This document shows positions 9,087-39,983 of a stretch of DNA of 64,000 nucleotides, in pieces. Each line of letters starts with the position of its first letter. The stretch's first letter is position 1. The notes beneath the pieces are model-generated. The model worked only from the letters and a program-made list of their open reading frames with translations. It did no database searches and was not told the DNA's origin. The translations under genes and the position numbers were made by a program. The stretch comes from Pisolithus tinctorius (lineage: Eukaryota > Basidiomycota > Agaricomycetes > Boletales > Pisolithaceae). The DNA lies in contig JANFAH010000026.1 in NCBI GenBank assembly GCA_024663395.1, positions 186,001 through 250,000 of the forward strand. Reading direction: 5' to 3'.

Positions 9087-9189
9087 CCTGGAGAACAGCT
9101 TTCGAGATGTTTTTGCCGACGGTCCAGCGACCAAGGGAGTGTCGGCAGAGGGGCGAGACGCTCCTTCCGACTGTTTGGGCAGAGATCAA

Positions 9190-10280: not shown

Positions 10281-10923
10281 TTACATGTTGTTGTTGAACA
10301 CCAAGGAGTAGCTGTCTGTGAATGCAGGATAAGCACCACACACGTACCCCCCCAGCAACCACATGACATTGATAACACCCAAGCAATTGAAGGTGTCAGC
10401 AGCACTTAGGAGGTCACAAGTCAGGTCAGTAACCTGAACCCAGAAACAGCCCCTGTCAGTCAGGGACCAAGGCATTGACCAGCAAATGTGAGGCAACTGA
10501 TGGATGTCTTCGCATGGAATGAAGTCGAAACCATGTGAGTTATATTTTTGGAGGGCAGCCATTGTCTTGGATCTGAGAGAACCGGAATAAATGGGATATG
10601 CATTAATCAGCGCACGCCCATGGAGGGTCAAGCTGGTGTAGGGAGTAGTATACTCCCTGAGGCTGAAATAGGGATGCCAACACCAAAATTCCACAGTTAC
10701 CATCCACGTCTGTCATCTTTGGAATTATTCCATCTGCCTTGTGCATTGGCCTCGTGTGCTGCCTCGCCTGTTGAACCTTTGGAGCTCCCCTGTCCATCAA
10801 TAACACACACCAGTCATTGTCCTGAAATTCCATGTCAACATCAACCTGACATATGTCCACCCTTGGCAGCAGTTTTTTGGAGGGATGGTGGTCTGTTAGA
10901 TATATATTTTGTGACAGCAACAA
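10281..10923 (-). pseudogene. unrecognised gene fragment cut by the palindrome
   Basis: Two overlapping minus-strand frames, 10923-10603 and 10703-10281, read like decayed protein-coding sequence. The first contains DVDMEFQDNDWCVLL, and the second has the aromatic stretches HPYFSLREYTTPYTSL and ICWSMPWSLTDRGCFWVQ. They overlap near 10690, so a frameshift or lost intron would be needed to join them. The upstream end runs into the palindrome arm at 10867, which suggests the fragment was truncated there. No family is recognised. Confidence 0.3.
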
Positions 10924-13807
10924 TGTATCTAACAGACCCTACCTCCAGCAGTGGTTCCCAGATGTATCTAATTATGGTTATGCTTCTTGAAGTGATCCAC
11001 CCCTCCCCTGCCAAATCTGGATATGTCTTCTGCAACATAAGTGAAATAGGGTAATTTACCCCTATTCCCTGTGCTTCTGATGGACAGTGTTACTGATAAT
11101 CCCTCTGTTGACCCTCACTCAACCATCTTGAGAGCCTCTCAAGACCCTCACCCAACCATCTCAAGAGCCTCTCAGCAACCTCCATAGATACACATTTATC
11201 ATTCCAATATGGTATCCCATGGCTTCTGAGTGATTGCATAATCAATATGTGGCAACTTGTTACAGACATTCAGTGACTCAACCATCTTGGGAGCCTCTCA
11301 AGAGCCTCACCCAACCATCTCAAGAGCCTCTCAGCAACCTCTGAAGATATATATTTATCATAGTAACATAGTAACCTGTGCTTCTGAATGATTATGTAGA
11401 TTATGTAATCAAGAAGTGTCATTGTTAATGAATCTGAGACCTGTGGGCCCTGAGATCTCAGATCTGACCTGCACTTCTTTGTGATTATGTAATCAAAAAA
11501 GCGGACTGAATGCCCTGCTCTCCCCTGGCTTTTTCTGCTTCACCACACACTCTCCCTGCCTTGTGATGATGTTCTACTGAGTTCCAATGGAATGTTTGTA
11601 TGTTATTTCATAGATAAACATGCAATTTTGATCCAGTCAAGTGCCCTGGAAGGATGCCAAAATAAATAGGGGTAAAATGCGAACTCTGTCCGCATTTTTG
11701 CAATTCTTGACATATGAACATGTAGATTGTGTCCCCAGGCAGCCTTAACATACATCTACGATGTATCAAAATCCAAAGGCATCAGCACCAGCCCTTGCAG
11801 AGATATAATTAGTTCTCCTCCTCCACACTGTATGGGGTACAGGCTAGTATCCTTGTCATTTCTGGATTTTCTAATGAATTGGGACTATTGAGGGTATACA
11901 GTACAATGTCTAATTAGAAGTGGTTGGGTAATTTAATTGAAGGATGAGATGCTAGACCACTTTTTTGGTTTTTTCTGATATGGCCACCACAGGACTCCTG
12001 TATGGATAACTTGTGATTTAATACCTTAGAATGGCTCTTCTCTAGTAGTTCTACCAATATCCAGAGTTACAAGTCCATCCATTCAGGATTGGAGGAGCAG
12101 GAAAGAAAATGAGTTCTGAAGAGCGTGGGAAAGTGATCGAAGATTTTAGGAGACTTTGAGAACATATAAAAAAATTGTAATACTACAACATACAGTGATG
12201 AAATGATCAATATATGTGCATGGTTAGATTGCTACTGTCATTTCACACCTCTCTATGCCACCTTTCTGTTGTCCAACCTGTCCACTGAGTGCCCATTGTA
12301 TAGATGTGTTACAACTTTGCTAGACTTTGCTTCAGTCTGGCAGTGCATACACAGAATGCAGACCAGGAGGTTTTCGCATTTTTGGCATTTCATGCAGCTA
12401 TATTATAGTATCATTGCTATCAGAGTGTTCATTGCATCAGCCACATACTATCTCTACAGTATCATGTACATTGGAGTGCTGTGTGTTGTAGTATTACAAT
12501 TTTTTTATATGTTCTCAAAGTCTCCTAAAATCTTCGATCACTTTCCCACGCTCTTCAGAACTCATTTTCTTTCCTGCTCCTCCAATCCTGAATGGATGGA
12601 CTTGTAACTCTGGATATTGGTAGAACTACTAGAGAAGAGCCATTCTAAGGTATTAAATCACAAGTTATCCATACAGGAGTCCTGTGGTGGCCATATCAGA
12701 AAAAACCAAAAAAGTGGTCTAGCATCTCATCCTTCAATTAAATTACCCAACCACTTCTAATTAGACATTGTACTGTATACCCTCAATAGTCCCAATTCAT
12801 TAGAAAATCCAGAAATGACAAGGATACTAGCCTGTACCCCATACAGTGTGGAGGAGGAGAACTAATTATATCTCTGCAAGGGCTGGTGCTGATGCCTTTG
12901 GATTTTGATACATCGTAGATGTATGTTAAGGCTGCCTGGGGACACAATCTACATGTTCATATGTCAAGAATTGCAAAAATGCGGACAGAGTTCGCATTTT
13001 ACCCCTATTTATTTTGGCATCCTTCCAGGGCACTTGACTGGATCAAAATTGCATGTTTATCTATGAAATAACATACAAACATTCCATTGGAACTCAGTAG
13101 AACATCATCACAAGGCAGGGAGAGTGTGTGGTGAAGCAGAAAAAGCCAGGGGAGAGCAGGGCATTCAGTCCGCTTTTTTGATTACATAATCACAAAGAAG
13201 TGCAGGTCAGATCTGAGATCTCAGGGCCCACAGGTCTCAGATTCATTAACAATGACACTTCTTGATTACATAATCTACATAATCATTCAGAAGCACAGGT
13301 TACTATGTTACTATGATAAATATATATCTTCAGAGGTTGCTGAGAGGCTCTTGAGATGGTTGGGTGAGGCTCTTGAGAGGCTCCCAAGATGGTTGAGTCA
13401 CTGAATGTCTGTAACAAGTTGCCACATATTGATTATGCAATCACTCAGAAGCCATGGGATACCATATTGGAATGATAAATGTGTATCTATGGAGGTTGCT
13501 GAGAGGCTCTTGAGATGGTTGGGTGAGGGTCTTGAGAGGCTCTCAAGATGGTTGAGTGAGGGTCAACAGAGGGATTATCAGTAACACTGTCCATCAGAAG
13601 CACAGGGAATAGGGGTAAATTACCCTATTTCACTTATGTTGCAGAAGACATATCCAGATTTGGCAGGGGAGGGGTGGATCACTTCAAGAAGCATAACCAT
13701 AATTAGATACATCTGGGAACCACTGCTGGAGGTAGGGTCTGTTAGATACATTGTTGCTGTCACAAAATATATATCTAACAGACCACCATCCCTCCAAAAA
13801 ACTGCTG
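10867..13807. repeat. large palindrome: two 1,329-bp inverted arms around a 283-bp spacer
   Basis: The left arm is 10867-12195 and the right arm 12479-13807. Blocks compared along the arms match as exact reverse complements, with one visible mismatch near the spacer (acaacata/acaacaca), and the arms have equal length, so no net indel. The arm is A+T rich and non-coding. It contains a tandemly repeated block (about 11119-11185 and 11277-11345, sharing CCAACCATCTCAAGAGCC). It also has a 13-bp hairpin ggtctgttagata/tatctaacagacc at 10890-10938, mirrored at 13736-13784. The spacer (12196-12478) is unique. Weak inverted similarity extends about 35 bp beyond the arms (gaattcca, gacatatg), so the original structure may have been larger. 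No target duplication was seen. A foldback transposon or an inverted duplication would both fit. Confidence 0.9.
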
Positions 13808-13842
13808 CCTGAGGTGCATATGTCTATCTGGAATTCCACATA

Positions 13843-13937
13843 ATGTAGTCATGCTTAGTCACAACATATGGGTAGCCTGTGCGCCAAATTACCATTACTG
13901 ATATAGAACCCGACGCGGGCCCGTCAAATTAATTAAG
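13843..13937 (+). repeat. left terminal inverted repeat of the KDZ-type element
   Basis: It is 95 bp and matches the complement of 31591-31498 with six substitutions and one single-base indel (GTCATGCTTAG against GTCAGCTTAG). It begins 35 bp after the palindrome's right arm ends. Four of the six substitutions are C/T or A/G changes in CpG or TpG context. Confidence 0.9.
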
Positions 13938-13959
13938 CTGTGACACATGAACAGGCCTG

Positions 13960-15860
13960 AGGGCACAGAACAACAGTAACATATGAGCAGGCCCACGAGT
14001 CAGCTGTCACAACTGATGGAACGGGCCAACAGGGATAAGGATAGCGCAACATATAGGGGGGGCCTGCGAAGAGGGGAGATTACTGGTGAACTGTAAGAAT
14101 ATAGACAGGCCCATTCATGGTACAGTGGGTGAAGAGATAATACATGGGCAGGCCCATGCGCAAGGGTTTGAATGATGCCGCAACATAAGCACAGGCCCAT
14201 TTACCGTCTGGCAGATGGCATCGCAACAAATGGGCGGGCCCATCCATCATATCATGGAAATGCCCAATCATATGCCTGGGACTGTCTATCATATAGCAGA
14301 TGGAGTCACGACAAATAGAGGGGTCCAAATATCATACCATGGACGATGCCACATCCGATAGATGGGCCCATCCATCGCATGGCAAATAATGTCGAAACAA
14401 ATGGATGGGCCTGTCAACCATTTCATCAATAATGACTCAATGAATTAATGGGCCTGTCCATGGTGTGAATGGAAAGATCACAGCATAAACAAGGGCCCGT
14501 CTTTCGTATGATGGATTGCACCGCATCAGATGGATGGGCATGTCCAACGGCCCCCTCCATTGGGGAGTGGGTAATGGTCGCACTGCATGGATTGGCCAGC
14601 CAATGGTATGATTGCCTGGCTCAAAACATGAAAATGGGCCTGGCTGTCAGAATGTGGATCACATTGTATCATATGGACAGGTGGGTCGTGAATATCGCGG
14701 TTCAGGTCGCATCAAATGAATGGGCCCATCCTCCATTGTATAGCTGATGATGCATCACATGGGCAGGCCCATCGATGGTATGATCTGTAAGATCAAAAGA
14801 TGCAGATGGGCCTGTCCTCCATTGTACAGCTAATGTCGCACCACATGGACGGGCCCGTTAATTGTGTGATCTGGAAGATGGAAAGATAAAGGCAGGCCCG
14901 TCCACCCGAACACAGATCACGGCATTGCACATTGACGGGCCCATGCAATATGTCACGGATGAGTCGCATCTAATCAAAGGGCCCATCCCCCATTGCATAG
15001 CTAATGTCAAATTACAAGGACGGGCCCATCGATGGTATCGTGTAGAAGATAAAAAGATGAAGACGTGCAAAACCTCTATGGTATATCTACTGACGCATTG
15101 TATGGATGGGCCAAATGATGATATGATCAGCGAGATCAAGAGATGCAACCAGGCCCGCCTGGAAGAACATGGATCATGCCGAGTCATATGGATGGGCCCG
15201 TCCACCATGCAGGGGTTCACATTGCATCAAATGAACAGGCCCGTCCGCCACTACATAGCTAACATCACATCAAATGGACAGGCCCATCAACTGTGTGCTC
15301 TGCGAGATCAAGAGATAAAGACAGGCCCATCTGCCCACAAGCAGATCACGCCATATCACATTGACGGGCCTGTCCAATGTGGCACAGTCACCTTCATATC
15401 AAATCAAAAGGCCCGTCATCCATTAAATATACTGACGCATGACATGGACAGGCCAAAGGATTGTAGATCGTACGATAAAGAGGGGACCATCCATCAAACG
15501 CGGTTTATGGCACATCATGCGGACGGGTCCAACCACCATGCAGCTGTACACATTGCATGACATGAACGAGCATGTCTGTCAGAACATAGATGATGCCATA
15601 TCATACAGACAGGCTGGTGCACCATATCCTAGCTAAACATGCAGATGGGCCCGTCCATGGGCCCCTGCATCAAGCGTCATGATATAGACAGGCCCATCTG
15701 AAATGTCAGGGTTGAGGTCAAATCAAATGAACAGGCCTGCCCTCTATTGAATGGAAACTGTCGCAACAGAGGGACGGGCCCATCGATGGGATGACTCGCA
15801 AGATCGCAACATGAAAACAGGCCTGTCCGGCCTACCATGGCAGATGCTGCATCGCCAGTA
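13960..15860 (+). repeat. left subterminal array of GGGCCC-centred motifs
   Basis: About 1.9 kb contains dozens of degenerate copies of a motif close to GGACGGGCCCATC. It recurs mostly every 42-45 bp, for example near 14722, 14765, 14810, 14850, 14896, 14938, 14980 and 15022. Between copies lies a second recurring word, GTCGCAACA/GTCGCATCA followed by ATGG, also present in the terminal repeat as GTCACAACATATGG. The array has no coding potential; open frames across it (for example 14862-15560) reflect the repeat composition. A likely role is transposase binding sites, as for subterminal repeats of other large DNA transposons. That role is inferred. Confidence 0.8.
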
Positions 15861-16592
15861 AGGACACGACTACCATCTCATGATCCTTGTCGCATCATCT
15901 CAACTGTCCAGAATTTCGTCTGCTGGATCAAAAGTTAAAGATAGGGCATCCGATGGATTGTCAACCCGATCACAGCAAAGGGAGATCAATTGTCCCACAG
16001 AAACTGACATCGCAAATCAACGAAGGGTGGATCTGTCGCATACAAATATGCGCAATAAATGAGCAGGCAGGTTGATTGCATAAGCTGCCCAGTGATGAGA
16101 AAATGAGCGCACTGTCAGCATCAGGTGGATGACGTCACACAGCATGGAGGGAGCTGCCTGCCATACGATGTGCCAACTAATAAATACATTCCGACTAGTA
16201 CTTTGCATTGAAAAACCATATATTCATGCCGTTCCGAGTGATCTTAGGCTGCATTGCTTACATTTCATCTGAGGGTGGGTCAAGTAAACGCAACTAAGGT
16301 CCAAATATTCTGAATCCTGTATTCAATGGCAAGCAAATATTTTACTATCAGTTCATAAATCTATTGTACCTCCTGTCCAATAGTAATGTGATGTTAGTTT
16401 AATGCGACGCAATCCTTCCGCCCTGGAGACATTGGGGCATTCCAAGTTCATGACGATATTCCATGGGAATGATACAGCGAACAACAAACACAAAGTACAA
16501 AAGCGGTGCGCAAGCGTCGTGTTGGCATTGCTACCCAAAAATTAACGCAAACCGTCACTGCTACCCAAAGCCGCTTCACTCTCAACAATGCC
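15861..16592. other. non-coding stretch between repeat array and first element gene
   Basis: No gene is assigned. The open frame of the following gene extends upstream to about 16506 without an ATG, so a 5' exon may lie here near 16440-16500. No repeat motif copies are seen after about 15860. Confidence 0.4.
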
Positions 16593-18742
16593 ATGAGCAC
16601 CTACAATGCACACGTTGAACTCGAAAACACTGCGAAGTCGATCTTGGAAATCATCGAAAGCCAAGTAAATGGCTCGAGGGATTTTGCGGATAAGCCGAGA
16701 TTTGTGGCATGGAAGGCAGGTGTGAGAGCGGTCGCAGCAGTAGTGGTGAGTCGCTGCATAATCTCACAGAGGCCATGTCTGATGGATGAAGGACTCCGTG
16801 CGTGAGATTGCTCATGTCACTCAACAGATTCTGCTCACCCTCATTGCCGCTGAAAAATTTTGCAAATGGCATGAGAGGGTGGGTTACGAATGCGAGGGTC
16901 ACCCGTTCCCAAAGTGGAGGCAAATCACCCACCCTGAGAAGGCTGACCTTGCTGGCCACCTATGGTTACAGAGCATCAAAGAACGCGTGCATTCAACATG
17001 CGCAGGCACCTCCATGGCTCCCATTCCCCCAACCCCGAAACCAAAATCTGCAAAACCGTCGAAGGTGGCAAGTCAAAAAGGAAAGGAAAAGGCTTCAGCA
17101 GCCAAGGTCAAGTAGATGACGCAGGTCGACGACCGCGATGGAGAGGGTAAAGGCATTGATAAGGATGTGGAGATGGTGGGCCATTGGATCGACGAGGGCC
17201 GTGCTCGTGGACCATCTATCACGAACGAACAACCCGCGTCTACCTCCCGCCTGCCCAGTCGCAAATCCTGAACGCCAAGGCCAAAGGTAATCAAGCAGGA
17301 GATGGTGGAGGAGGACGAAGAGGACGAGTTGGATGATGATGAAGATCTGCATGTTGCCTTGGACGCAGGCCAGCCTGGTACGTCGACCTGTCTGCAACCT
17401 CATTTGACAGCACCTGCCATCACGGCTCTGCCGAAATCCATGCCGGGACGCAGACCCTGTGACACATGTGTTCGCCGCAATGTTACTTGCACTCCAAGGA
17501 CAAAGGGTTCGTGTGTGCAATGCAAGCATCGCAAGATTTGCTGCTCACAATCCGACCCGCGCCCTTCTAAAGGCAGTACTCCCAGGACTTCTTCAGGACA
17601 GAATCGCTCTTGCGCACGTAGCAAGAAACGGTCTTGCAGCACCACCACGCCTAGCGACGATGAGCAACTCGACAAACCAGACCGTCTGGCAAAGAAACCT
17701 CGCCAAACACCAGCTGTCACCCCCATCCCAAAGAACCGCCCAGTGGTCTTGATACCTCGGGGAAGACCAGGTGCATTTCAGCTCCAGCATAAGATGTGAT
17801 TTCATGACATCTAAAACAGTGATATGTCTACCAGCAAGGCCTGCTCGGACCACCTCGCAAGTCTTGCCTGCCCAACCACAGCAACGCCTGCAACCCACTT
17901 GCACTGCCATGCCAGGTGCTGGACCATCAAGAACGCCTCAATCGAGCATGATTACAGGTCAGCGTGCAGTTTATGAATCGTAATGTAGTTCTGACATTTC
18001 TCACCCGTAAATCGAACTAGCACATGAGCAGAATGCCGCCCCATCCACCCGCACTCCTCGGTCCGCACCAACACCACAACTGCAACCACCAACATTATTT
18101 GAAGTCGACATGCGCGATGAGCTCAACCAGCTCTTTTTCTTCTGTGAGTCCATCTCTGCGCAAATGGTGGAAGTCAAAAAGCGGCTGAACGCCATGGACG
18201 GCCGTTGACAGGCAGCCACGCCTGGGCTGGTTGAGGATCGGATGCGAAGCATGGCCAATGAGCTTGCCTGCATTTCATCATGACAAGCATCCACCGACAG
18301 GAAGTTGGACTGCGCAATCCACGCAATTGAAGCCTTGCGCTTACAGGTGGTTGGCCGCGCCGAAGGACCTCCCGACACTATTGAAAATTCGACCATGGCA
18401 ATGACCGCACTGCCTCCACCTGATGAGGAGTCGATGGATGGAATGGAAGGGTTGGGTTTGAGTGCTAAGGGTCCACTCAGCAGATCAGTCAGTGGCTTTG
18501 CAGTTGATGAGGTTGCAGGTGTTGTGGCAGAAAGGCAGGCGGCAGGCATTGAAGAGCACTTGCTAGATTCGGGTCCATGCAATGAGGACCAAATGGTGGA
18601 CAGGGATGGAGGGCAAGAACAACGAGAGGATTCAGCCAGACACCCAATGATGCCTTCCACAATTGCAGTTGCTCCCCCGCTGCACCCACAAACTGAATTG
18701 AACGTCGATCGGCCATCCACTGAGGAGCCACAACAGCATTAG
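16593..18742 (+). pseudogene. KDZ-element gene with a cysteine cluster, broken by stops
   Basis: Unrecognised gene in the left half of the transposon. The first in-frame ATG of the long exon is at 16593. An intron near 16747-16827 begins GTGAGT. Downstream the same frame continues through a Lys/Pro-rich segment, an acidic stretch near 17320-17360 (EEDEEDELDDDED) and a cysteine cluster CDTCVRRNVTC...CVQCKHRKICC near 17455-17550. Its spacing resembles Zn2Cys6-type or similar zinc-binding knots. A helical, coiled-coil-like segment follows near 18100-18340, then an acidic tail ending with TAG at 18740-18742. In-frame stops interrupt it: TAG 17113-17115, TGA 17269-17271, TGA 18206-18208 and TGA 18281-18283. 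Each TGA would be an Arg CGA codon with one C restored. The cluster suggests DNA binding, but the role is unknown. Confidence 0.5.
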
Positions 18743-19100
18743 ACAGTAGGAAATTCAGTACAAGATGGGACTGATGAGGTAGATACACCATTTACTATCG
18801 AATGTGATGTATGGGGTGGGGATATGACCGCCATGGTTGTTGGGTCAATGCCGGAGTGCTTGCCGAGGATCCTACCATCTTATATCAATTAGTTCTATTG
18901 TCCATCAGAAGATGTGGGTTTTGTCATGCAGTATCCTTAGAATGCATTTTTCTTAGTGGCTGAATATCAATTTTCAATTTGCCGCCTGTGACGGGAGGAC
19001 AGATTGGTGACATCTGATGGGGATATGGCAACACCAATGTCAACTGAACATTTGCACATGGGCAGCATAAGTACATTACACGGAGGATGCTGGTATATGG
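18743..19100. other. convergent intergenic gap inside the element
   Basis: About 360 bp separates the 3' end of the cysteine-cluster gene (plus) from the 3' end of the transposase (minus). No gene or motif was identified; it would hold both 3' UTRs. Confidence 0.5.
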
Positions 19101-22100
19101 CTATGTATCGACATTGTCAAGATCCATCAGATTAGGTATTTCCGTCAAGTTCATCTCCTGCCATTTGAACTGAGTCCACTCTGCAAGTTGCTCAAATATT
19201 GCTATCTGCTTCGCAGCATAGCAGGTAGGCCCAACGGCTTCACATTTGGACTGAAAGATCCACCATTGCGCGGCTTGATGGGTGAAGAAATTGAGCGTCC
19301 ATTGAAATTCAGCTGTCAGCAATTCTTGTTCTTCCATCCAGCGATCTTGTACCGCTTTGGCTCGAAGCCAATGAATCCGGTAAACTTACACAGCAGTAAA
19401 TCTCGCTGTCTACTGTGATAGATGAGTGACCTACATTCCGACATCCATGTATTTGATTCTGTATCCCTAGGCATGTCGATAGACCAAAACCATGGTAATT
19501 GGCTGCCCTGGTGGTCATGCGCATTCTGACTGATGGCTGCTGTACTGACGGTGAGGTGCAATTTCTGCATTTCCTGGAACCTCGAAAGGGTCTCTTCAGT
19601 TGCACCAAGAGATACCATCGCTGCTCAGCATTGCTTGTAAATTGCGGCTTGCTTGCGAACCGCGCCGTTGATGGTATGGATCATATCCCATGCCTGCATT
19701 TTCATAGCATAGCTTTTTGCCTGCCACACGGTGTTTTGGAAGACTACTGCCTTATCCACTAAGGCAAGCCAAAGCCCATGCAGCGTGTCATTCGCTTGGC
19801 CAATCCGCAGTTTCAATTTGATCTCCCAGATGCTGTCTAGTCCAGAAGCAATGCATTGATTAATTCCCAAGTTCGATGGGAGCGGCAGTGACATGCTGCC
19901 TACAAGGTCAGCAGCATCCGCGGTCGGTGATCCATCTGTGCTGTCATTCGGCTCATCAGGATCAGATGCGCATTCGCCAGATATACCAAACAGGTCATCC
20001 ATAGAGCCATCCCGTCCATGTTCGGCAGGGGAAATACCTCCCACTTCATGTTGTACACCAAAATCTACCGCTCCATCTGCGATAAATGCAGACCGCTCAG
20101 AGGATAAACGCTCCATCCGACGAGCAATGGCTAGTCGTTTCAATTCTGGGGCATGTGCACTGACATGGTGACGATCGATCCACAGTGTGATTGACGCCTC
20201 CTCAAGCCAGAGACCCTGTGCAAGCCAACTTCCAATGCCGAGCTGTATTCCGACATTCGATGTGTTTTCCAACAATTCCAGTTCGACGGCATGTACAGTT
20301 GGTGCTGTCTGGATGTCAGGATGGATGGAAAATTCAACACATTCCAAAGACCACACCCTTCTTCATTTGCACCTTGAAGACGTCCATAGCGGAGGCATTG
20401 TGAATTCTGTCATTGAATGCAGTTTCCTCTTGATTGCGCCAGGAATGTCATTGTGAAACGGATACTCCCTCATCAAGCATTTGGAATGCCTGCATCACCA
20501 GATCTGCAGCCACCCGCACGGCTGCAAGCTTCCGAGACAGACTATCGACTATGCGCACCGCATCAGCAGTGTGAACGGATCAAGAGAATTACTTACCCAT
20601 TCAAATCATCTTCATGAAGTTACAGTCACTCATCTGAAAATCTAACAGCTCCTGTCAGTGCGGGGAACTCATGCCCCGCACAGATGCGGATACAACGTTC
20701 AGTAATGACCACAAGGTTTCGATGATTTCACTGTCTACCCAGCCAGCACCTTTCATAAACAAGGGGGCATATCTTGCATAGCATTCCTGCTTGTGACCAT
20801 GCACATGCCAGATTCCGATCCCAGGCATAATCTGCAGCGATTGCGGGATTTCAATGAAGGAGCTATTTCCAACCCACATGCGTAGATTTTTCATGTAAGA
20901 ACAGTTTATGTCATAGAAACAGAGGACCTTGTTGATGCCTGCCATGTTGTAGTGTAAGGCATTTGCCAGTGAGTAATCCATATTTAACTGCCTACACTTC
21001 CGTGAGTGGGAGGCGCATGAGTGAATGGATGTATTACCTTTCACCCTTTTGGAAGTCGACAACAGAATGCAGGTAAAAGCACCCATGCCGCGTGCAAGCC
21101 GTCACGCCTATTCTGGTTGAGTGAAGTTTGCCGCAGTTAGCATTGGCCTGATTGATAGCTCTATGGCTGTTGCATGGCGATTTCTGGCCATCATATGAGT
21201 GCTTGAATGACGGAAAATGTCAGATATATGTACCTCTGTGACATGGGGAGTGGCCTGCAGGTATGCCTGATACTCAGAGTTGGAGACCATGTATCCACGT
21301 CCATCCATCATCCGCACCTGGTCTGCTGGACGCCTGTCATGCATATGTTCAGCTTTGAAATTTCCGTCCATCACCAGCGTGTGGGCATATTTCCAGCTTC
21401 AGAAGGTGAGCAGATGGTGAGTGAGTCGATTCTGGCCTCTCACTGATTCAAATCTTCTGTCGGGTCGACGTTGATACCCGGCTGTGGACATGTTGCGCAA
21501 AATAACACTAGGTCACCTCGCTTGTGCGTGTCTGTGCATTCCAAGATGCCGCTCCATTTCATCAGTTTCAGGAGTCACCATTGCTGTGCGACTTGCAGCA
21601 ACTCACAGTACCTGTCCTGTTTGCATGAAGTCATTAGACTGGTTAGTAAAGACGATTTTACTATGATCACTTACTGGAACCAAGTGAGGAAACACAGCAG
21701 ACGTGATCCGGTGCAATTTGCTGTAATAGTTCATCCCGGTTGTCCCGCATTCGAGGTTGTCTCTCACAAAATCGTCCAAAACTGCAAATGTAAACGTAGT
21801 GCTGGGTTTTTCGAAGGTTGCAGGAAATAACTTTGCTTGGAGTAACTGAATTGGGTAGGCTTCGGCATCTTCGCATTGGCACCAACGTACTGGGATGAAA
21901 TGCACCCCAGTGACATCGACCATGGTGAGATATTTCGACCTGACAGGTCGCCGCAAGTGGGGCAGCATATCATCCACATCTTCCCATTCCTTTCCATCAA
22001 TTGGGCAGGTCCCGCTAGCGCAACTTGCACTTGGCAGATCCAATGGACAAATTGCTCCACTGTGCCCGAGATGGAGCTCAGCCCCTGTCTATGGCCCGCT

Positions 22101-22523
22101 TTGTGATTGTCACCCGACTTCATGGACTGATCTCTCGCCATGTGCAATGCTGATTCCTCGAAGAAGTTCCCTGCCCATTGCTGGACTCTGTGGAACAGCA
22201 AGCCCTGATGGGTAACCCTGCAGCATTCCTTGCAGAACAGTGGCTGGTGGATGCAATCAGGACATCTGTAACCCCCTTCCACTCCACACCTGGCACAGTT
22301 CTGTGGCTTGGGGGGTGCTTCCAGATCCAAAAGGACCTTCATGAATTCCTCCTTGTGTGGAAGCCACTCTCAGATATAATCATTCTGTGTCTGACAATTG
22401 GAGTGAGCTTGGTTGTATGCCAGAAGGATGTCTTGGCACCTTCTTTTGAGGTAACTGTAATGGCTCTACAGGTGGGGCATCATTATCATGTTGCATGTCA
22501 AATGCATCCTCAATGGGATCCAT
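19101..22523 (-). pseudogene. KDZ-family DDE transposase with CxC zinc region
   Basis: Fungal KDZ transposase, read right to left. A candidate ATG is at 22523. A cysteine-rich CxC domain follows (CARCGVEGGYRCPDC, FCKECCRVTH; about 22320-22150), then the CxC companion block (VDVTGVHFIPVRWCQC). An LVMDGNFKAEH segment carries the first catalytic Asp, then CNSHRAINQANA, RHGCFYLHSVVDFQKGER, CFYDINCSY (second Asp) and VDSEIIETLW (Glu). The C-terminal part has KLRIGQANDTLHGL and LPWFWSID, ending at 19101. Introns seen: 21674 to about 21618, 21443-21397 (47 nt), a 32-nt one near 21220-21189, and one near 21034-20987. In-frame TGA codons at 22372-22370, 21577-21575, 20657-20655 and 20450-20448 disrupt it, the first three where the family has Arg. 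The DDE residues themselves survive. It would cut and paste the element through its TIRs. The first ~50 residues are uncertain. Confidence 0.88.
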
Positions 22524-23175
22524 GTGTGGCTTGGAAGGAGATCAAGAGTGCTTAGGATGGGGAGGAGCGGGGAAAATGGACAGAGGAGGTGGCATCTAGT
22601 GGTGTAATTGCCACCTCTACTAATCTCGATCTGCACCTACCACTTGTTGTCCTGAGTCTTAATCTGAAGCTGCTTGACTCGATGGCCAGGGGTATGGCCA
22701 ATCATTCGCATATGCTTTCCTCCACTGCGTTTAGCCATATCTATGCTGTTGACAGTGAACTATGTATCTGTTAGTTGCTGGTAGGAATGACCATGATCTC
22801 TTTACTACTGTTTCACTTTCAGCTCACAGATCTCAATGTGATGCACCAGATCTTCGGTATCATTGCCCAATGAAGGTGATTGGGTGGCTCCAATTTTGCC
22901 CCCGACCTAAACCCAGAAGCTGCCAACCTTATTGGGGTAGGATTAGTCAATGGAATGAATGCAATTGGTTCGCTTGCTGGATGTCAAGATTAATGGCCCC
23001 CGAAGTGCCGATAATTAATGGGGGAAGATCGCCAAAAGTCAATCGGCAAGCGGGCAGATGCAATGGGGATGTGATTTGGACAATGTCATGGATACCAAAG
23101 TGCATTGGATTAGTCTATTATAATACTTAATGCAATAATGTTGAAAGATACCCACTTTCCATTCCAGATATCGAC
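22524..23175. promoter_or_regulatory. divergent intergenic region, probable bidirectional promoter
   Basis: About 650 bp lie between the candidate start of the transposase (minus, 22523) and the ATG of the next gene (plus, 23176). No open frame of note occurs and no gene is recognised. Its position makes it the likely shared promoter of the transposase and the accessory gene. No specific motif was identified. Confidence 0.4.
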
Positions 23176-25741
23176 ATGGATTCACAATATGATGAAGACA
23201 ATGGCTACAATGATAGTGGCCTGACAGATCTCGATGATGGTGGTAGCATCTTCAACCAAGGCACAGAGCAGTCAGTCATTGGGGATGAGGACCAGGAGAG
23301 TTTTGACATAGATGAATTGGAGGTCTTGGTTCGAAGACGGAAGGATTGGAAAGAGTCTGGAAAGACGAAGAAGCTGATGATCTTGCAGTCCATATTGGGA
23401 GAGCTGCACGAATTAGAAAAAAACAGGGAGCTGTCGCATGCAGAAATGCAGCTGAAAGCAGGGGTATGTGGCTGCAACTATGGATGCCTCTTCCATGATT
23501 AACACGTACCTGGTAGCTCGTCACCTCTTGGTTGAAGAAGCCGCTGCGTGCACGGAAGCCCCATATTACTCTCCGGTCCAGATACAAGTACTCAGTGCGG
23601 TCGGTGGTTTGGGAACTATATCATGACCGTATCCAGCGGAAGCTGGCTGCCATGAGAGGGGAAAATGAGGATGGTGAAGGAACCAGGGCAATTGGGGTGT
23701 ATCAGCAGGCATTGACCTCGGTCATACAAGAGGACCTCTCTGACAAGCAGCTGGCAGCAGCGCAGGACATAGCCAACAAGTGGAATGGAATGGAAGGACC
23801 CACCCCCGAAATGAAAGCCAGGTGCATTGTCAGCTGTGAAGATCGTCGCTGAAGTTGCGAATTGATGTGAGTGCATAGAAATGCAGTGAAATATGGGTAC
23901 AAGTATTGCCGAAATTTCGCAGAAGAGATGTGGCGGTACTGTGGCATGCGGGTGGTATGCGTTGCAGGTTGGAAGAATGCGGAGGGCAGCGTTGAAGCAT
24001 GCACGTAAGTGCCAATACTCAGCCAGCATTGTAGCAGAACACTGATCCTCTGCAAGAATGGACTTCAACCGAGATATTGCCGATGGAACTGCGTTTAACG
24101 AGATCTGCAACCTAGAAGGGTCCTGGCAGGAGTACCTTGGTGAAGCATTCGAGGAGGATGGAATATTGACTGACGAAGACGACCCCCACACTGAAGGCAG
24201 TCCGTGGAAGAAGACGGTCTGCACCATTAAAGTGGATCCCGTGACTTTGGTTATGGATGCAGATGGGAGCATATCCATCCCTGAAATCGAAGGTCTGACG
24301 CGCGATTTGCTGCAGAAAACAGTGCACGGGTTCCTGACAGCACACTACAGTAAGTGTCAGTTTTGTATATGCGGCTTCTTCTGATAGGCAATGTTAAGGA
24401 CAAGCCTGCGGAAAAGCTACTGCGGCCGTCCCATTCAAACAGCTCGGGTCGCATCAAATCGAAATGATTGCGGCAGAGTATCTACCCGCCAATTTTTCCT
24501 TCACAGGTGACCCTAGTCATATGTCGGTGTCAGCGGCAACATGGCTGTTGAGCTTTTGGCGGCAACAGGCAACAAACTAATCCAGATGATGCGTTCACCT
24601 TTCACAAGTGGTTGGATTCGATTTGGGGAGTTGCACTCCCCAGTGGATGGCAGAATTCATCCACTACAAATCGCAAGGGACCAGCGATCAAGGTCTCGGA
24701 CCCCCTGCGGCCACTCGAGAGGGATCCAAGGTGCCTGGCCAGGAATACCAGACCATCGGGCATGGCAGGAAAGGGAAAGGGAAAAGCAGATGCAATTCCA
24801 GCAGATATTCATCAGACTGACGTAGGTATTGTTCAACAGACATCCCCCATGAGCCACCCGACGGGATGCATGTCTGGCTCGAGCCAACATCACCGTAGCC
24901 AGATTAATTCCACCGGCAATACATCCTGCAGAATGCGTCTTGTTGGCAATACGATCATGTCTGACACTGCCTCAGAGGGTGAAGATGCTGAGGATGAAGT
25001 GGAGCAGTGGTCAAATGGCCCTCGTGCTGCAACTCCCTTCCCGCGACCTACGGCTGTGTGCACCCGGCCAGCCGTCGAGCATCAGCAAGCAACCCATAAG
25101 TTGTGCAAGAAAACACCTTTGCCTGTCACGTTGGTAACAGCAAGCCTGTGGTCCCAATGCTGATCAGGACGAGGAAGGCCAGTCCGAAGGGAAAGCCTTG
25201 GACAGCATAGATGACACGGAGGAATTGCCTGTGTTGGCTCGCAGGAATTGAGGTCAGCCCCATTGTCATTGGAGAGATTGGATATTAAAACGTTCTTCAG
25301 ATATAATTGGCCAGATCAAAGACCTGCTCTGCAAATCAAGGCGATGATAGCCTGCATGGTTTGCCATTGGCGAAAAATGCATTGACTGTTCCAGATCGAC
25401 GCCAATTGAAGTCAGCAGATGGACGGTTGAGGCCATCTTTGAAAACCAGCCGAGGTCCACAAGCTACTAAGAATCCATCCGCACATGTGGCCACAGCAGC
25501 CCTGAAGAGTGGACCATCACGCACAACGCAGAAAGGCACAACCAACGGTAAATCATCCAAGGGCATGCCAGCCAAGACCCTCAGAGATGGAATGGGAGAT
25601 GCCATCTGGAAATCACCTCAGGTTCGCAAAGCACCTGCCCAGGCCAGATGCTGATGTCCTCTCGCCTCCATCAAAGAAATCGCGGAAGCACAAATCAGCT
25701 GCATCCCCTGGGCCAGCTGGCAAGAGGCGACGGATACAGTG
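23176..25741 (+). pseudogene. KDZ-associated accessory gene of unknown function
   Basis: It starts at ATG 23176 with an acidic N-terminus (MDSQYDEDNGYNDSGLTDL). A charged helical segment follows, then a block with YHDRIQRKLAAMRGENEDG (23616-23672). A conserved-looking core spans 23900-24350 (FAEEMWRYCGMRVV, MDFNRDIADGTAF, DADGSISIPEIEGLTRDLL), followed by SHQIEMIAAEYLPANFSF near 24440-24500. The C-terminal third is Lys/Ser/Pro-rich and ends KRRRIQ with TGA at 25739-25741, suggesting a nuclear basic tail. Clear introns include one at about 24008-24057. A tandem 7-bp duplication, GGCAACA twice at 24561-24574, shifts the frame; with one copy the frame continues as FWRQQTNPDDAFTFHKWLD. A stop at about 23863 also lies in the path. 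I recall similar proteins beside KDZ transposases, but no function is known. Confidence 0.55.
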
Positions 25742-26125
25742 ATATCAGATGGAATATGTATTGGAAGCTCTATACTGCAAGATAGACGTGATCATCTTAG
25801 TTTAGGTAGTCACTGTTGGAATGCCTATGCTAGCGGCCCCCCAGGCTCTGAAGTGGCATATCCGCGCTATGAGCTGCCAAGGAATCTCAGTCCAACCAAC
25901 CTTTTCAACGAACAGACAAAGTTCACAACGATGATCTCATCAAAATGAACATGGTACAATTTCAACCTGGAATATATTTCAGGCGGCAGGGGCATACCCG
26001 AGTTACGCGCCACAGCTGCATGACACGCGGGGCTCCCACCTCGCATACAGCATTCCCACAGTTTGAAATTGATATTGCGAGCACCAAAACCTTCCGATGG
26101 TGAAATTACTGAGTACTCTCCCATC
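25742..26125. other. intergenic gap between two accessory genes
   Basis: About 380 bp between the basic-tailed accessory gene and the proline-rich one, both on the plus strand. No gene is recognised. It would carry the terminator of the first and the promoter of the second. Confidence 0.4.
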
Positions 26126-28220
26126 ATGGCAGAACAATCACTGCGCGGCATTCATTTCAATCCTGGAGGTATGGTTCGCACCTTGTTCCACAGTAATCTC
26201 ACTAATCATTGGTAGTTCGGATCCATCGAATCGAAGCCAGAGGGGACAATCCGGGAACTGCAGACCCGTCGCGGAGCAATCGCAGTCGAAGAAGACATCA
26301 ACGACCTGCGAGCTACGGTGAAAAAACGATGCAGGATCCAGTGCCACCCCCACCACCCCCATCTGCAGCCGCCTATTCGAAGGACCATCTCGTTCCACCC
26401 CCCCCTCCACCATTTGAGACCGCTTTCCCAATGGAAGAGCTCCTTCCACCTCTGCCACCACCTTCGGACACCGCTGAGGTCGCAGCTGAGCTGGAAGAAG
26501 TTCCGCCACCACCACCGCCTGCTGAAGATATCGAGGACGAGGACACGGACCGTCTGCCACCGCCACCATCGTCTGATGACGACGAGTCTGCCGATGACCT
26601 TACCCCACCTCCACCTCCATCATCCAAGGACTGTAGTATGTCAGATGAGCCAATCCCACCGCTGCCTCCACCCGTGGATGAATCTGACTCTTGCGGTTCC
26701 ATTGCATCGCCCGCCGGTACGTCAAATCGATTGTTCATGCATTAGATTGGCCCCCTCATCGCTACAGCAATGGAAACAGAGGTAGCTTCAGCAGAACTAC
26801 TGCCAGCTGAAGCTGAAGGTAATCATTCAATGACTGATGACATGAAGTCAGCAATGATTATCTGAAATTACAGATACTCGATTCTTGGTGGCTGCAGTTG
26901 CTGCACCACAACATCCATCGCTGGAAGATCAACCTGACATATTTGCGCACACAGAACAGAACTGACTGCGACGAACGTTCCAGGATTTGTGTTCTGCTTG
27001 GATTGGTAAGGTTCATGACGTTTCATGAGACTAGTTACAATGGCTGACATGGTACAGGGCATGATCTATCTGATGAGGAGAAGATGCAAATGGAGATGGA
27101 TGGGTTCGTACATCCTGGAGCTGACATTGCGGGTAAGCATTCAGATAATGTTGGGACAGCCGGGTTGACATCTGAGCAGTATACTGGGAAATTCATCGAC
27201 TGAGACTTGATCATCGTCCTGTGCGGTATCATTTTCCCTTTGTCCCACATGAATGGCATGATAGGGCGATCGTGGATGGAATGTCCCGGACAGCAACTGA
27301 ATTCGCATATTCGGTAGCACGCCAGATGGACCTTCTTGAAGAAGGCAACAGGTGCCTGGGTCAGCTAGACGATCTAGAAGAGTTCCACGATCCATTCGTT
27401 TTGTTAGGCCTCCAACGCTATGCAGGACAGCCGCGAAATCTCGCACGAAACTCAGTAATGGACATGATTGTCATGTACATGGCTTGCCGAATCAATACTG
27501 CAGTGTGGCACCTGACCCAGCTGCCGAGCACCACTCACTGGCCTGAAGACTGGTATCAACATCTGCACATTGATATGGTGAGTTTTATTTCTAGGCAGAT
27601 GTTCCCACTTTTGTACATTTATCCAGGGCACCCTGGACTGTCTCATTCCCATTGCGGTCACCCAGAATTGTTATCGGCCCCCGCTTCCCGCTGCGTACAT
27701 CTTACATCGTATGGGCAGATGGACAGAAGCAACCTTCCGCGATGCTTTGTTTCAAATTCCTGAGGCGCAGATAACTGATTTCACCTATAGCATTATCGAG
27801 CTGCTGCCTCGGTGGTCTCCGTGTCCAGATACTGATGGCAGCTTCGTGTTGCCTTGGTGGTTGAACGGCATATCCAACTATGCAAGCGAGGCTCGGGTCC
27901 TGTGTTCCAACGAGGTCCAGACTATCACCCAGAGGTACTTCACTGTAGGGGTTCTGAGTTGTCCAGTTTATATGTGAGGATGATGATACTTTGCTCAGGA
28001 TCTTTGGCCATTGCAAAAGTCCCCCATCAAGGATCGCCTACATGGGGTCTTGGACGCCCAGGTAAAGTGGTATAAGAACAATGCACTGAGGGTAGAGGCG
28101 CTGCTCCCAGGTCTGACAGCCGAAGTCGAAGAATTATTTGAGTGGCCCAACTGCATGGCTCAGATGTTGGGGCGGTACCATGAACCCAATGCATGCATTG
28201 TATGTATGGATGGAAATTAA
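26126..28220 (+). pseudogene. proline-rich KDZ-element gene, single stop in an otherwise spliceable frame
   Basis: A multi-exon frame reads well through consistent splice sites. The ATG at 26126 begins MAEQSLRGIHFNP. Introns: 26169-26215 (ctaat branch site), 26717-26767, 26819-26873, 26006-26057 shifted by 1 kb (that is, 27006-27057), and 27133-27176. Exon 2 encodes polyproline runs (VPPPPPPSAAAY, PPPPPPFETAF, DLTPPPPPSS) alternating with acidic Glu/Asp blocks. After intron 5 comes a folded-looking region (YHFPFVPHEWHDRAIVDGM, RNLARNSVMDMIVMYMACR, HWPEDWYQHLHID), continued in exons near 27630-27943 and 28000-28220, ending with TAA. One in-frame TGA at 26963-26965 (Asn-stop-Leu) would be Arg as CGA. 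The last two junctions are not fully in phase as read. No family is recognised. Polyproline segments usually bind SH3, WW or profilin-type partners; that role here is speculation. Confidence 0.5.
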
Positions 28221-28290
28221 CTTGTATTACCGTAGCAGATATACATTTGTCTAGGACTTCTCCTAGCAATACATTAATTCTCGTCTACAT

Positions 28291-30184
28291 TTATGTGGGA
28301 CCTGCACACAGCTCTGTCGCGATATCCGATATATGCGGCCCACAACATAGTGGGATGTCTACATACTGATGCATGTTCTCTCGCATGTAATATGCAAGGC
28401 ATGCCTGATTGCCATCTGCGCTATCAACCTGATGAACCAATGACGCTCCTGACATTGCGATTACGGTGCCTGAATTGTATCGGAACCGCATTCCCAGCTC
28501 TGGGATGACAAAGTCCAGAGGAGTGTAGCGTCCGACTGTCAACAACGTATCCAACCATACCTTTCAGCCATTTGTATCTTTATGAGGGGGAGACTTCCGA
28601 TTTACCATTAATGACATGGAACTGTAGACACTGTTCCAGATTGGCAATATGGCCTGCATATCCTCGTCTTGCCATGCAACTGCCATTGATCTGAGTCGCA
28701 TGAGTGCCTCCCGCCCATGTAGGTACATTTTCGGGTGCATGATTCGCAATGCACCCAATAGAACGGTGTGTAGCCCAGCCATGCTATCCAGCCATTGACG
28801 GGTCTCATTTGCTCCCGACTTTTCTTTTAAAAGTAGCGATACTTCCGGGTGATGTGAAGGGTTGCTGGGCTGTTAGCAGAGTTACGAGAGTGAAATCATC
28901 TTTGAATGGATAATGACTCACCCCATGCCCTTGCTGAAACCATGCTGGTGAGAGGTCGATGGCGCCTTTAAGATCTGTGGCTGGGCGAAAATGGTTGGAA
29001 TCATGCCGCCAGCCGCCTGCCCCGTTGGACTTCACGCTCCGTGCAAGTGGGATACTGAGGTTGCCCAACGAATTCCAAATCTCAGCCTGATGGGATCGTT
29101 AGCAAAGTGCGGGATGCCCCATTCAGTTTGCCAACCTGATACGCCTCGCCGAACGCATTTGGTAGATACCACAGGAGGATGTTTCCCTCTTTGTCAATTA
29201 CCGCTGTTGGACAGTCGATTTCTGCGTAACTTGAATGGTCCACGATGACATTAACGTCCCGCATTTCCTCGACAATGACTGGGAATTTCTTAGCCTTTCA
29301 AATTTCGTGGATAGATGGACTGACTGCATTCACGATATGCCTCGACTATGACCAGCAAAATGTGATCCGCTTTGCACGCTATCTGCAACAGAATCGATAC
29401 ATGTGGGAGGGCGCATGGGCCACCAATGACCTCCTCACGCAACCGGGACACCATGTATGTAGAGACGCAGTCCATCAGATCCATTTTCCAATTACCTGGG
29501 AGGCTTTTGGGGCTTTTTAATGGTGTCATTGTATGGTATACAAGTGGCAGATCGTTGGACCAAAATTCTGAGATCATTGGCATGGGTGGACAATGAGATG
29601 AATCAGTATTTGAATTACGGAAACGCCGGGCACCCGATGTATTCTCAAGCATCAGGAAGGAAATCGAAGCTATCGATGGTAATGATATTGCACATTTGAA
29701 TTGTTGCTATTGTCCAGCATCATGGATGTACCCGCACGACAATTCCATCTTTACAACGTTTGTATATGCCCAAGTTGATATATCATGTGAGGCAGGTGCC
29801 CTTGGTCGCAATATTATGAAAACAGAGCCGATGTGAACCCACTTGTTGACAAATCCAGCACAGATACCAGTCCCGGCGTTCACGGCATCAGTTGGCAAGT
29901 GTCACTGGGCCTTGATATTCAGCGCGTTGTCGGGTTGGCCATGTATGTGAGGGGATGCTACTTTGGATCTGCCCACCGGCCGCCCGCAATGTTGCCAGAG
30001 CGGCATTTGACCGCATTGTCACTTGGACCTTCGCAATCAATACACAAAAAATGTTGCAAAGGCATTGCAATTCACTGAATACATTTCCTTCACTTGCAAT
30101 CTCCATCTCTATTTGCGGGGAACTTTCACAAAATGTCCAAGATGAATGACGGGTCCATCCATCGAGCGGGCCAATATCCACCAT
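28291..30184 (-). pseudogene. TET/JBP-like 2-oxoglutarate/Fe(II) dioxygenase
   Basis: TET/JBP enzymes oxidise 5-methylcytosine (or thymine) in DNA using Fe(II) and 2-oxoglutarate. Reading right to left, an N-terminal part starts possibly at ATG 30184 with unresolved exons. The segment at 29264-29082 contains AVIDKEGNILLWYLPNAF, and 29068-28920 contains DLSPAWFQQGHG. The segment 28852-28564 contains a helical stretch and NRKSPPHKDTNG, whose His-Lys-Asp (codons 28584-28576) fits the HxD iron motif. The segment 28563-28291 contains GRYTPLDFVIPELGMRF, SGASLVHQV (distal His) and LAYYMR (2-oxoglutarate-binding Arg region). These match my memory of the fungal TET/JBP family. A TGA at 28566-28564, just after the HxD, interrupts the frame where Arg CGA is likely. 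Another KDZ cargo dioxygenase is possible but less likely. Confidence 0.72.
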
Positions 30185-30479
30185 CCGGCGGCCATGCCTG
30201 AATATCTACAGGGTCCAGGCACTCTTAATTACGGCGTTAGGCCGGTTGTGATGGGTTCTCATGAATTGCAACTGCCCGGACCGTTCCATACAAGGTCCCT
30301 TGCTGCTGTTGCCGTGTTCAACCGTCACACAATTGATGATCCAGCTCATGCATTTTGTCATCATCTGGAACATGAACCATAGGCATGCGTATAACTTTCA
30401 ATGAATGCCATGTTGCGTAGACGAGCCTGTTCATTCATTGTGCCAGCATCTGCTGCATAAATTCGTCAGCCTGGAGATA

Positions 30480-31480
30480 AGTTGTGCAGGTTTCGACGTC
30501 ACACCATCAGGCCCGCCCAAATGTTATGAAAGCACATGCCATCCATGTGACGGGCTTTCCCACTCGATTCTCCTGGGTCAAGATGGCTTGCTAGCGGCCC
30601 TCCATGTGTTCGAATGGATCCGCCAAACCAACGTCAGGCCCCCCATAGGTTGTGCCACATGTGACATCCCATTGACGGGCCTGTACACGGCCTATGAGAG
30701 CACCCGCAACATTGCTCACGGCCCTCCTCATCTGTTTCGACAGGTTCAACGTTTCTTCGACAGGCCCATTGATGCCTTACGCTGGCATCTGCGATATACT
30801 GCGCGGCACTGCCCATCTGTTTTGACGCGCTCAGAAGTCCATGCATGCGCCCGTCCATGGGTTGTGACAGTGTCTGGAATTTAACCATCAGGCCTGCTCA
30901 TAAGTTGCGACACATGCAACATCGCTTTTATGGGCCCGACCGTTTGTTCCGACAGTACCATGTATTCCCAGGATGGGCCTGCCCATTAGTTTCAATGGGT
31001 TCAACATTCTTTGGATGGGCCCGTCCATGTATTTTCACAGCACCCACCCCGCATGTGACAGGCCCGCCAATAGGTTTGATGGATGTGATATCCTTTCGAT
31101 GGGCCTGTCCACGCCTTATTACAGCACCCATCCTGCATACGATGGGCCTGCCCATTAGCTTCGATGGGTTCAACATACCCTCATCAGGCCCATCCATTTG
31201 TTGTCGCAGCATCCGCCCCCGAAATGACAGGCCCACCCATATGTTGGGACAGATGCGATATCTTCTGGACGGGCCTACCCATCAGTTTCTATGGGTTCAA
31301 AGTTTCTTGGATGGGCCAGCCCATGGGTTGGGATGCCCTCTACTTTGATGATGACAGGCCCACACATTAGGTGCCGTGGGGTGGCACATCCTGCCACCAG
31401 CCTGCCTGGGCCTGCACATACGTTGTAATATACTTGTCATGGGCCTGCTCATTTGCTGCTGTCACTCTAGGCCTCTGGGC
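30480..31480 (-). repeat. right subterminal array of GGGCCC-centred motifs
   Basis: The motif here reads GATGGGCCCGTCC, the reverse complement of the left array's form, so the arrays are inverted like the TIRs. Copies near 30933, 30976, 31018, 31063, 31100, 31144, 31187, 31230, 31272, 31313 and 31356 are mostly 41-45 bp apart. A TTGTGAC/TTGCGAC word precedes many copies, matching the complement of GTCACAA in the TIR. Open frames across this array (30405-30884, 30845-31348) are repeat artefacts. The array is about 1 kb, shorter than the left one. Confidence 0.8.
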
Positions 31481-31497
31481 CTCTTCATATGTTGTGA

Positions 31498-31591
31498 CTT
31501 AATTAATTTGATGGGCCCGCATCGGGCTCTATGTGAGTAATGGTAATTTGGCGCACAGGCTACCCATGTGTTGTGACTAAGCTGACTACAT
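31498..31591 (-). repeat. right terminal inverted repeat of the KDZ-type element
   Basis: It is 94 bp, the complement of 13843-13937 with six substitutions and one single-base deletion. The flank immediately to the right begins ggggtcgggaac and soon becomes the tail of an older gag ORF (minus strand). Confidence 0.9.
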
Positions 31592-31599
31592 GGGGTCGG

Positions 31600-32613: not shown

Positions 32614-33308
32614 TGTTATGCCCGCTTCACATATGCTTCCTTTTTTGACAACTTCCCCTAAGTCACCAGGTCATGTGTGTCATGTGCCTCATTGCATCAC
32701 TTGTCCTCACCATGATAGTCCTCAGTCTATTGGCATGTAGAGCCTTCAGATCACCAGTGGTGGTGGTATTTCCAATACCAACTGATGTGGCCTGTGCCAG
32801 TGTCATTCTGACTCGCAGCTGTGCCCACAGCTGATGGACATATATTTCATTTGTGTCTACATCCCTTCCCATGCTCTGTTAGCTCATTTATGTTACTCAC
32901 ATGTTTCTTTCCTTGCTCTTGGTATCAACGCCCCTCGCTGCAGACTGCATCCACAGCCAGTTTGGCTGTTCCCCCGGTACTTGACTCGTTTCTGTTTCAT
33001 CATTTACTTGTTTACGACTGACTGTGGATGTGTGTATGGTACAAACCCCATAGGGGTATATAAGTAGACCTACCATACCATGTATCCCCAGTTTTTCAAT
33101 ATCTTGCAACTCTGCTATCATCTTTGACTCGTCCCCCTATTCTTCCTCCATGTGATTCCAAGAGAATTCACCAGAAGGACAAACCTTTGTTTGGACTCGT
33201 CAATAACAAGTGGAGCCATCAGGGGTTATGATAAGTTTGGCCCGTAGATTCACCTCAAGACATTTGTGCCTAGTCCATTTGATGAAGTCACTCGTCATGA
33301 GCATAACA
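32614..33308 (+). repeat. 5' LTR of the chromovirus
   Basis: 695 bp, the same length as the 3' copy. A TATA-like ggggtatataagtag lies near 33053-33067, a plausible start region for the genomic RNA. Differences from the 3' LTR in the first ~200 bp are almost all C/T or G/A, mostly where the other copy has CpG. Confidence 0.93.
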
Positions 33309-33553
33309 AAATCGAAAAACTCAACACAGCTTTCCAGGACTCGATTGACCTCTTCATGCAAAGTCAATCTCATCCCTCAGTTTTCTGAACTTCAACAAAA
33401 CCAACCTTTTCAACTACCTCCTTTACCGGCTTAACACTCTACAGGCAGCCCATACGGGACTAATACATCACCTCCCTAGAGTCCGGAATCTTTCTCCCCT
33501 TTATATCCAACTGACAGGTTTCCCTCAGGATATAAATCCTCCCTCAGTCTTCA

Positions 33554-39743: not shown

Positions 39744-39971
39744 GAACCTATCCCTGAGGGGCATCCCCTCTATAAGCATGCTTGCTACCAGTGCCATTAC
39801 TTGGGACATTGGTCCTGTCAGAATGGACAGGGATTGCATTGGACTCCCGCAATGGCCTCCCCACCTTCTCCATCGCCTCCGGCACCCATTGCTTCGCACA
39901 CCCACTCCCATCACCCCACTACCCCAGGTCCCTCTTGCTCCCATCACTCGTCCTCAAGGGTCTGAGGACCT

Positions 39972-39983
39972 TAGGGGGGGTGA
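39972..39983 (+). promoter_or_regulatory. polypurine tract before the 3' LTR
   Basis: A run of A and G containing seven consecutive G bases (about 39973-39980) sits 3 bp before the 3' LTR start at 39984. This is the place and composition expected of the plus-strand primer for retroelement DNA synthesis. Confidence 0.65.

Follow-up and report, generated by a model that had tools for sequence, protein, structure and literature searches.

A decayed KDZ transposon with a TET/JBP dioxygenase gene and phased subterminal CpG-palindrome arrays in Pisolithus tinctorius

Structure and surroundings of the element

The stretch of Pisolithus tinctorius DNA analysed here (the window; 64,000 nucleotides of contig JANFAH010000026.1) contains a KDZ element spanning 13837-31597 (17,761 bp), with the following features.

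13837..31597, no strand: whole KDZ element, ends common to nine copies, without a target-site duplication in the window copy
13843..14000, plus strand: left terminal inverted repeat, inside six asymmetric end bases (CACATA); includes GTCACAACATATGGGTAGCC, similar to the array unit
13916..15825, no strand: left subterminal array, 29 YRGGCCYR sites with a phase of about 43 bp (measured on copies C4 and C24)
16593..18742, plus strand: g1, a six-cysteine Zn2Cys6-like gene; exons provisional, two in-frame TGA in the last exon of the window copy
19101..22738, minus strand: KDZ transposase, including the CxC2 region, modelled in 11 exons; broken by seven in-frame stops and, in its first exon, by two insertions of 1 base
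23176..25742, plus strand: g3a, unknown gene with relatives found only in Pisolithus; one in-frame TGA
26126..28220, plus strand: g3b, tail-to-tail neighbour of TET; unknown gene whose N-terminus is rich in proline and whose relatives were found in Pisolithus only
28291..29529, minus strand: TET/JBP dioxygenase of AG type, CcTet-like; CGA>TGA interrupts the frame and the probable 2OG-binding Arg is Gln
30508..31519, no strand: right subterminal array with 17 YRGGCCYR sites, most units being oppositely oriented
31434..31591, minus strand: right terminal inverted repeat, with six asymmetric end bases (GGGGTC) outside the repeat

Inverted repeats lie at 13853-13998 and 31437-31582 (146 nt, 82% complementary, 17.4 kb between them), and comparison of nine copies (the window copy and eight others, with flanks all different) placed the true element ends 6 bp outside the repeats on either side (5'-CACATAATGTAGTC ... 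GACTACATGGGGTC-3'). The terminal repeats, matched over about 95 bp in the initial annotation, are about 150 bp long. Target duplications were 7 bp, exact in seven of the nine copies and matching at six of seven positions in one; at the two ends of the window copy none was found. The window copy, C21a and C4 form family A (96.5–99.6% identical) and the six other copies family B (95–99% identical), the two families being about 65% identical to one another. Private insertions were seen in two family B copies, C21b (4.1 kb, with direct-repeat ends of about 350 bp that are 85% identical) and C5 (0.8, 1.8 and 0.5 kb) (L041-L043, L050-L052). The nine-copy comparison shows a real, autonomous-type, TIR-bearing KDZ DNA transposon of P. 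tinctorius, of which the window holds a decayed copy; the ends, the TET gene and the three further genes proposed from the window were all confirmed.

To the left of the element lies another inverted-repeat element (10853-13821; 1,362-nt arms, 99% complementary, CpG observed/expected about 0.11), both ends of which recur at about equal distance at C11:435071-438023; it was rejected as a part of the KDZ element, since its end matches many genome places and it lies outside the common element ends. A retrotransposon to the right (32614-40678), Ty3-like by its reading frames, has 695-bp LTRs that are 94.2% identical and a 5-bp duplication (TGTAG), and served as a decay control. Further left, the reading frames at 4147-9185 (minus strand) have the look of a NACHT-WD40 NLR-like gene, in whose WD40 region a unit recurs 15 times in steps of 129 bp; 12 of 14 copies are 82–89% identical to the reference copy, which suggests concerted evolution of the repeats.

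Genes of the element and their copies in the genome

Exon models were built from conservation between families A and B. The spliced C4 transposase matched the Pfam profiles KDZ (PF18758; E=2.5e-49, 168 bits) and CxC2 (PF18803; E=1.7e-22, 80 bits), and the window exons also gave both (CxC2, 2.9e-23; KDZ, 8e-22 within one exon), which bears out the KDZ assignment of the initial annotation. A PF18758 domain together with a CxC region places the element among the KDZ transposons. The spliced C4 TET matched Tet_JBP (PF12851; E=5e-15). The window TET fell into two pieces, each below the cut-off, but reached 54.8 bits, above the cut-off, in a genome search that read through the in-frame TGA. The HxD and distal His/Arg motifs attributed to the enzyme are present in C4, whereas in the window copy the distal Arg, which we take to be the probable 2-oxoglutarate binder, is Gln and the frame is broken before it. 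Compared with CcTet of Coprinopsis cinerea (PDB 7vpn, 7w5p, 8jkk; E=4e-27), the C4 protein is alike, keeping HxD, the distal His, the Arg and the equivalents of G331 and D337, residues whose roles are taken from PMC12730594; the window copy differs in its stop and its Gln. By its HxD, distal His, Gly331/Asp337 equivalents and CcTet homology, the C4 enzyme is predicted to be an AG-type TET/JBP protein. Elsewhere, 18 genome places share an equal-scoring short stop-free Tet_JBP match (36.6 bits, profile span 64-163; for example C1:1888455, C2:1438232, C6:517747 and C46:78983), and these probably represent a recently expanded TET+ family.

The cysteine-cluster gene and the two unknown genes also proved real. 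In families A and B, g1 has six cysteines (CX2CX6CX6CX2CX6C), a spacing that presumably fits the Zn2Cys6 rule, and its Pfam Zn_clus scores were below the cut-off (14.4 and 10.2 bits against 21); the g1 protein was taken from an automatic model and its exons are therefore provisional. No Pfam family scored above the cut-off for g3a or g3b, and PDB profile matches were rejected as noise (g3b to Prp8, best E 0.0083; g3a, best E 0.1). Relatives of g3a and g3b among the matches listed (8, 54 and 17 proteins, two of the lists representing about 8,000 candidates scored) all bear Pisolithus names, and g3a and g3b may be one gene or two, because some public annotations fuse both. Between C4 and C24, a pair with dS above 1, dN/dS was 0.17 for TET, 0.16 for the transposase, 0.23 for g3a, 0.20 for g3b and 0.25 for g1; with ratios of 0.16–0.25, all five genes have therefore been kept by purifying selection.

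The left and right repeats were searched in the genome and the best 40 of 245 and best 40 of 209 candidates, respectively, were scored. The matches listed comprised 70 distinct ends, which formed at least 17 pairs 14–26 kb apart, and among the 17 pairs listed there are 15 different left flanks; C12 with C166, and C19 with C196, each appear to be a single site present in two haplotypes, and primary and secondary scaffolds are mentioned for Pisolithus in PMC10066745. Paired ends elsewhere do enclose the genes of the element, as the initial annotation would have it: g3b lay within all 17 listed pairs and TET within at least 15 of them (TET matches being the best 150 of 186). The transposase, g1 and g3a were surveyed in the nine aligned copies, three of which (C4, C24 and the window copy) have the whole gene set modelled. 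Of 130 g3b rows, 97 collapsed to 60 clusters, 41 with a listed TET within 3 kb, in every case tail-to-tail; the other 19 had none within 3 kb among the matches listed. In a distant TET+ family, g3b relatives (25–30% identity) adjoin TET, and a profile search of L001-L008 supports them (best E 7.5e-13); this suggests that the TET-g3b pair may be older than the families compared.

Subterminal arrays and known systems

The inner repeat arrays seen in the window are real and occupy the outer 2 kb or so on the left and about 1–2 kb on the right, where all but one of the YRGGCCYR sites of the window element fall (29 left, 17 right, 1 between). The commonest form of the site in less decayed copies is the CpG palindrome CGGGCCCG (14–15 in C4/C21a, 25 in C24), of which the window copy retains two. 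It is part of an array unit of approximately 25 bp (about GTCRCAACATATGGACGGGCCCGTC) that recurs every 42–44 bp, and the terminal repeat itself holds one unit-like sequence, GTCACAACATATGGGTAGCC. Spacings in the 42–44-bp register numbered 23 of 26 and 12 of 13 in C4 and 28 of 32 and 25 of 30 in C24 (88 of 101 in total; mean fraction 0.06–0.07 under random placement). In the distant family, L001, L006, L007 and L008 have the palindrome at 42–44-bp spacing and L002-L005 only its CpG-decayed forms, at that spacing and its multiples, so that arrays with palindrome and phase were seen in three TET+ families. Across the genome the two-site pattern occurred 88+83 times against 0+0 for a reversed control, both strands of one palindrome pair often being counted, and a listed TET stood no more than 16 kb from 14 of the 16 two-site clusters among the matches listed; for the remaining two the distance was 43 and 29 kb, and of these one adjoins an element end already known and the other has a g3b 10 kb away. 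The palindrome was not found in 18 Ty3-like fragments, and the companion motif YRCAACAW alone showed no enrichment at element ends.

Dense subterminal repeats are known from other transposons: those of maize Spm/En carry CpG, are bound by the element protein TnpA in a methylation-sensitive manner and resemble the Pisolithus arrays, although Spm/En is a CACTA element with a 3-bp target duplication and no TET. A likeness of design only is offered by VANDAL elements of Arabidopsis, in which dense short-motif arrays in non-coding element DNA are tied to methylation loss; their VANC is a motif-binding anti-silencing protein, in the available parts of these papers not described as a dioxygenase (PMC5735166, PMC10398659). 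Complete TET+ Kyakuja and Zisupton elements of Agaricomycetes were described by Kojima 2025 (PMC12730594), with Boletales listed among the hosts of TET+ Kyakuja and escape from methylation or silencing proposed for TET+ elements; that paper thus already covers the KDZ-TET link, which the initial annotation rightly took as established, together with complete TET+ elements and the idea of escape. The Pisolithus element shares with Kyakuja its KDZ transposase, AG-type TET and 7-bp target duplication, but the published Kyakuja termini are 5'-CA..TG-3' without TIRs, whereas the Pisolithus element runs CACATA..GGGGTC (CA..TC) with TIRs of about 150 bp lying 6 bp inside; a Zisupton identity was rejected (8-bp target duplications, against 7 bp here). 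Relative to the TET+ Kyakuja and Zisupton elements in the available text of that paper, the Pisolithus element adds the phased CpG-palindrome arrays and the recurrent pairing of TET with g3b. The paper's main text contains none of the words Pisolithus, subterminal and CpG, and no CpG-decay test was found in the text available; among the matches listed, no title or abstract opening on Pisolithus KDZ/TET transposons or subterminal repeats describes the arrays. While the window element is a dead copy of a known element kind with an unusually well-defined kit, the phased CpG-palindrome arrays at both ends, the purifying selection on all five genes, the recurring tail-to-tail TET-g3b pair and the CpG-decay test of a TET+ element are new here.

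CpG decay and the role of the dioxygenase

Compared with its two close copies, the window copy shows 498 CpG losses, 12 CpG gains and 75 other changes, with losses on both strands (260 and 238) and all along the element (0.15–0.28 of CpGs per kb). In all, 488 of 2312 CpG positions (21%) were changed, against 20 of 6882 non-CpG cytosines. All seven in-frame stops in the window transposase, and the one in TET, are CGA>TGA, whereas both frames are intact in C4 and C21a. The context of the losses (ACG 0.28, CCG 0.23, GCG 0.20, TCG 0.15) led us to reject a TCG-type RIP signature. The comparison of copies shows inactivation of the window copy by CpG-to-TpG decay, the footprint that would be expected of methylated CpG, and indirectly points to past methylation of the copies. 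A search of the host genome for a cytosine-5 methyltransferase gave three weak matches, all above the cut-off, and CpG hypermutation of repeats is reported for Tricholoma matsutake in PMC6980582.

The initial annotation held that the element, by carrying an enzyme able to erase DNA methylation, may have protected itself from silencing. Protection in cis would accord with the retention of TET under selection and with two copies that have intact transposase and TET frames, are 99.6% identical and show a CpG observed/expected of 0.97–0.98; that same youngest pair, however, has a saturation-corrected CpG:other rate ratio of about 43 (95% 25–102), and the window copy, its mutations overwhelmingly CpG transitions, lost 21% of its CpGs and had TET itself broken by one. 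Ratios in TET+ pairs ranged from 21 to 53 (11 of 18 computed). As controls, three LTR pairs were tried (one in the window, two elsewhere), of which the C66 pair gave no alignment and the two others, TET-less, gave 22 (95% 10–44) and 20 (95% 10–54); Ty3-like internal fragments (18 copies) were rejected for this purpose, four being identical and the rest old sub-lineages, many CpG-rich. CpG decay is no slower in TET+ copies than in the two TET-less LTR pairs, and no protection is visible in this low-power comparison. The record suggests that TET did not save the window copy from methylation and decay, and we regard cis protection as decidedly unlikely. A TET that works on many repeats in trans, or only briefly around transposition, and so leaves no cis protection in the long-term mutational record, has nearly an even chance of being the correct reading: 150 Tet_JBP genome matches were scored (best 150 of 186, some being haplotype duplicates), and oxidised 5mC lies also on retrotransposons in related fungi (PMC12730594), although a comparison with LTR elements would not be clean if TET worked in trans.

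Two other readings concern the structure itself. The window copy might be a recombinant or a misassembled join of two insertions, which we consider somewhat unlikely: it has no target duplication despite only about 0.6% non-CpG divergence from its closest copies, a multicopy inverted-repeat element stops 15 bp from its left end and on the right it is flanked by a dispersed repeat of another kind, but it is colinear end to end with the other copies. The arrays might be passive tandem duplications without function, as longer self-similarity inside them at shifts of about 128–170 bp could indicate; since palindrome and 42–44-bp phase recur in three families though the spacers differ, and the arrays stand at both ends with a unit-like sequence in the TIR, this appears highly unlikely.

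Taken whole, the locus is very probably best explained as a decayed five-gene KDZ-TET transposon whose arrays are putative binding sites that TET would demethylate during mobilisation. The roles of the arrays, g1, g3a and g3b are inferred from anatomy only: the arrays would serve for binding, as copies of the terminal site repeated towards the interior, on which the transposase would assemble with g1 and possibly g3b; TET would oxidise 5mC there, making binding and expression possible during mobilisation, and copies that stayed silenced would decay. A more specific version, in which g1 and/or the transposase, with g3b, assemble on the 43-bp-phased CGGGCCCG arrays and bring TET for sequence-addressed demethylation, is a speculative and rather unlikely proposal. 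If it were true, the CpG in each palindrome arm would mean that the site is blocked by methylation and lost through deamination, the array would serve as a sensor as well as the target of TET and hence as a switch for movement of the element, and the tail-to-tail TET-g3b pair would be an enzyme and its partner.

The question addressed by these data is why fungal transposons carry TET. The full kit, the candidate address sites and copies at various stages of decay occur together in one genome, and the escape hypothesis is therefore testable there; the mutational record points away from simple long-term protection in cis and towards a role of TET that may be transient or site-directed.
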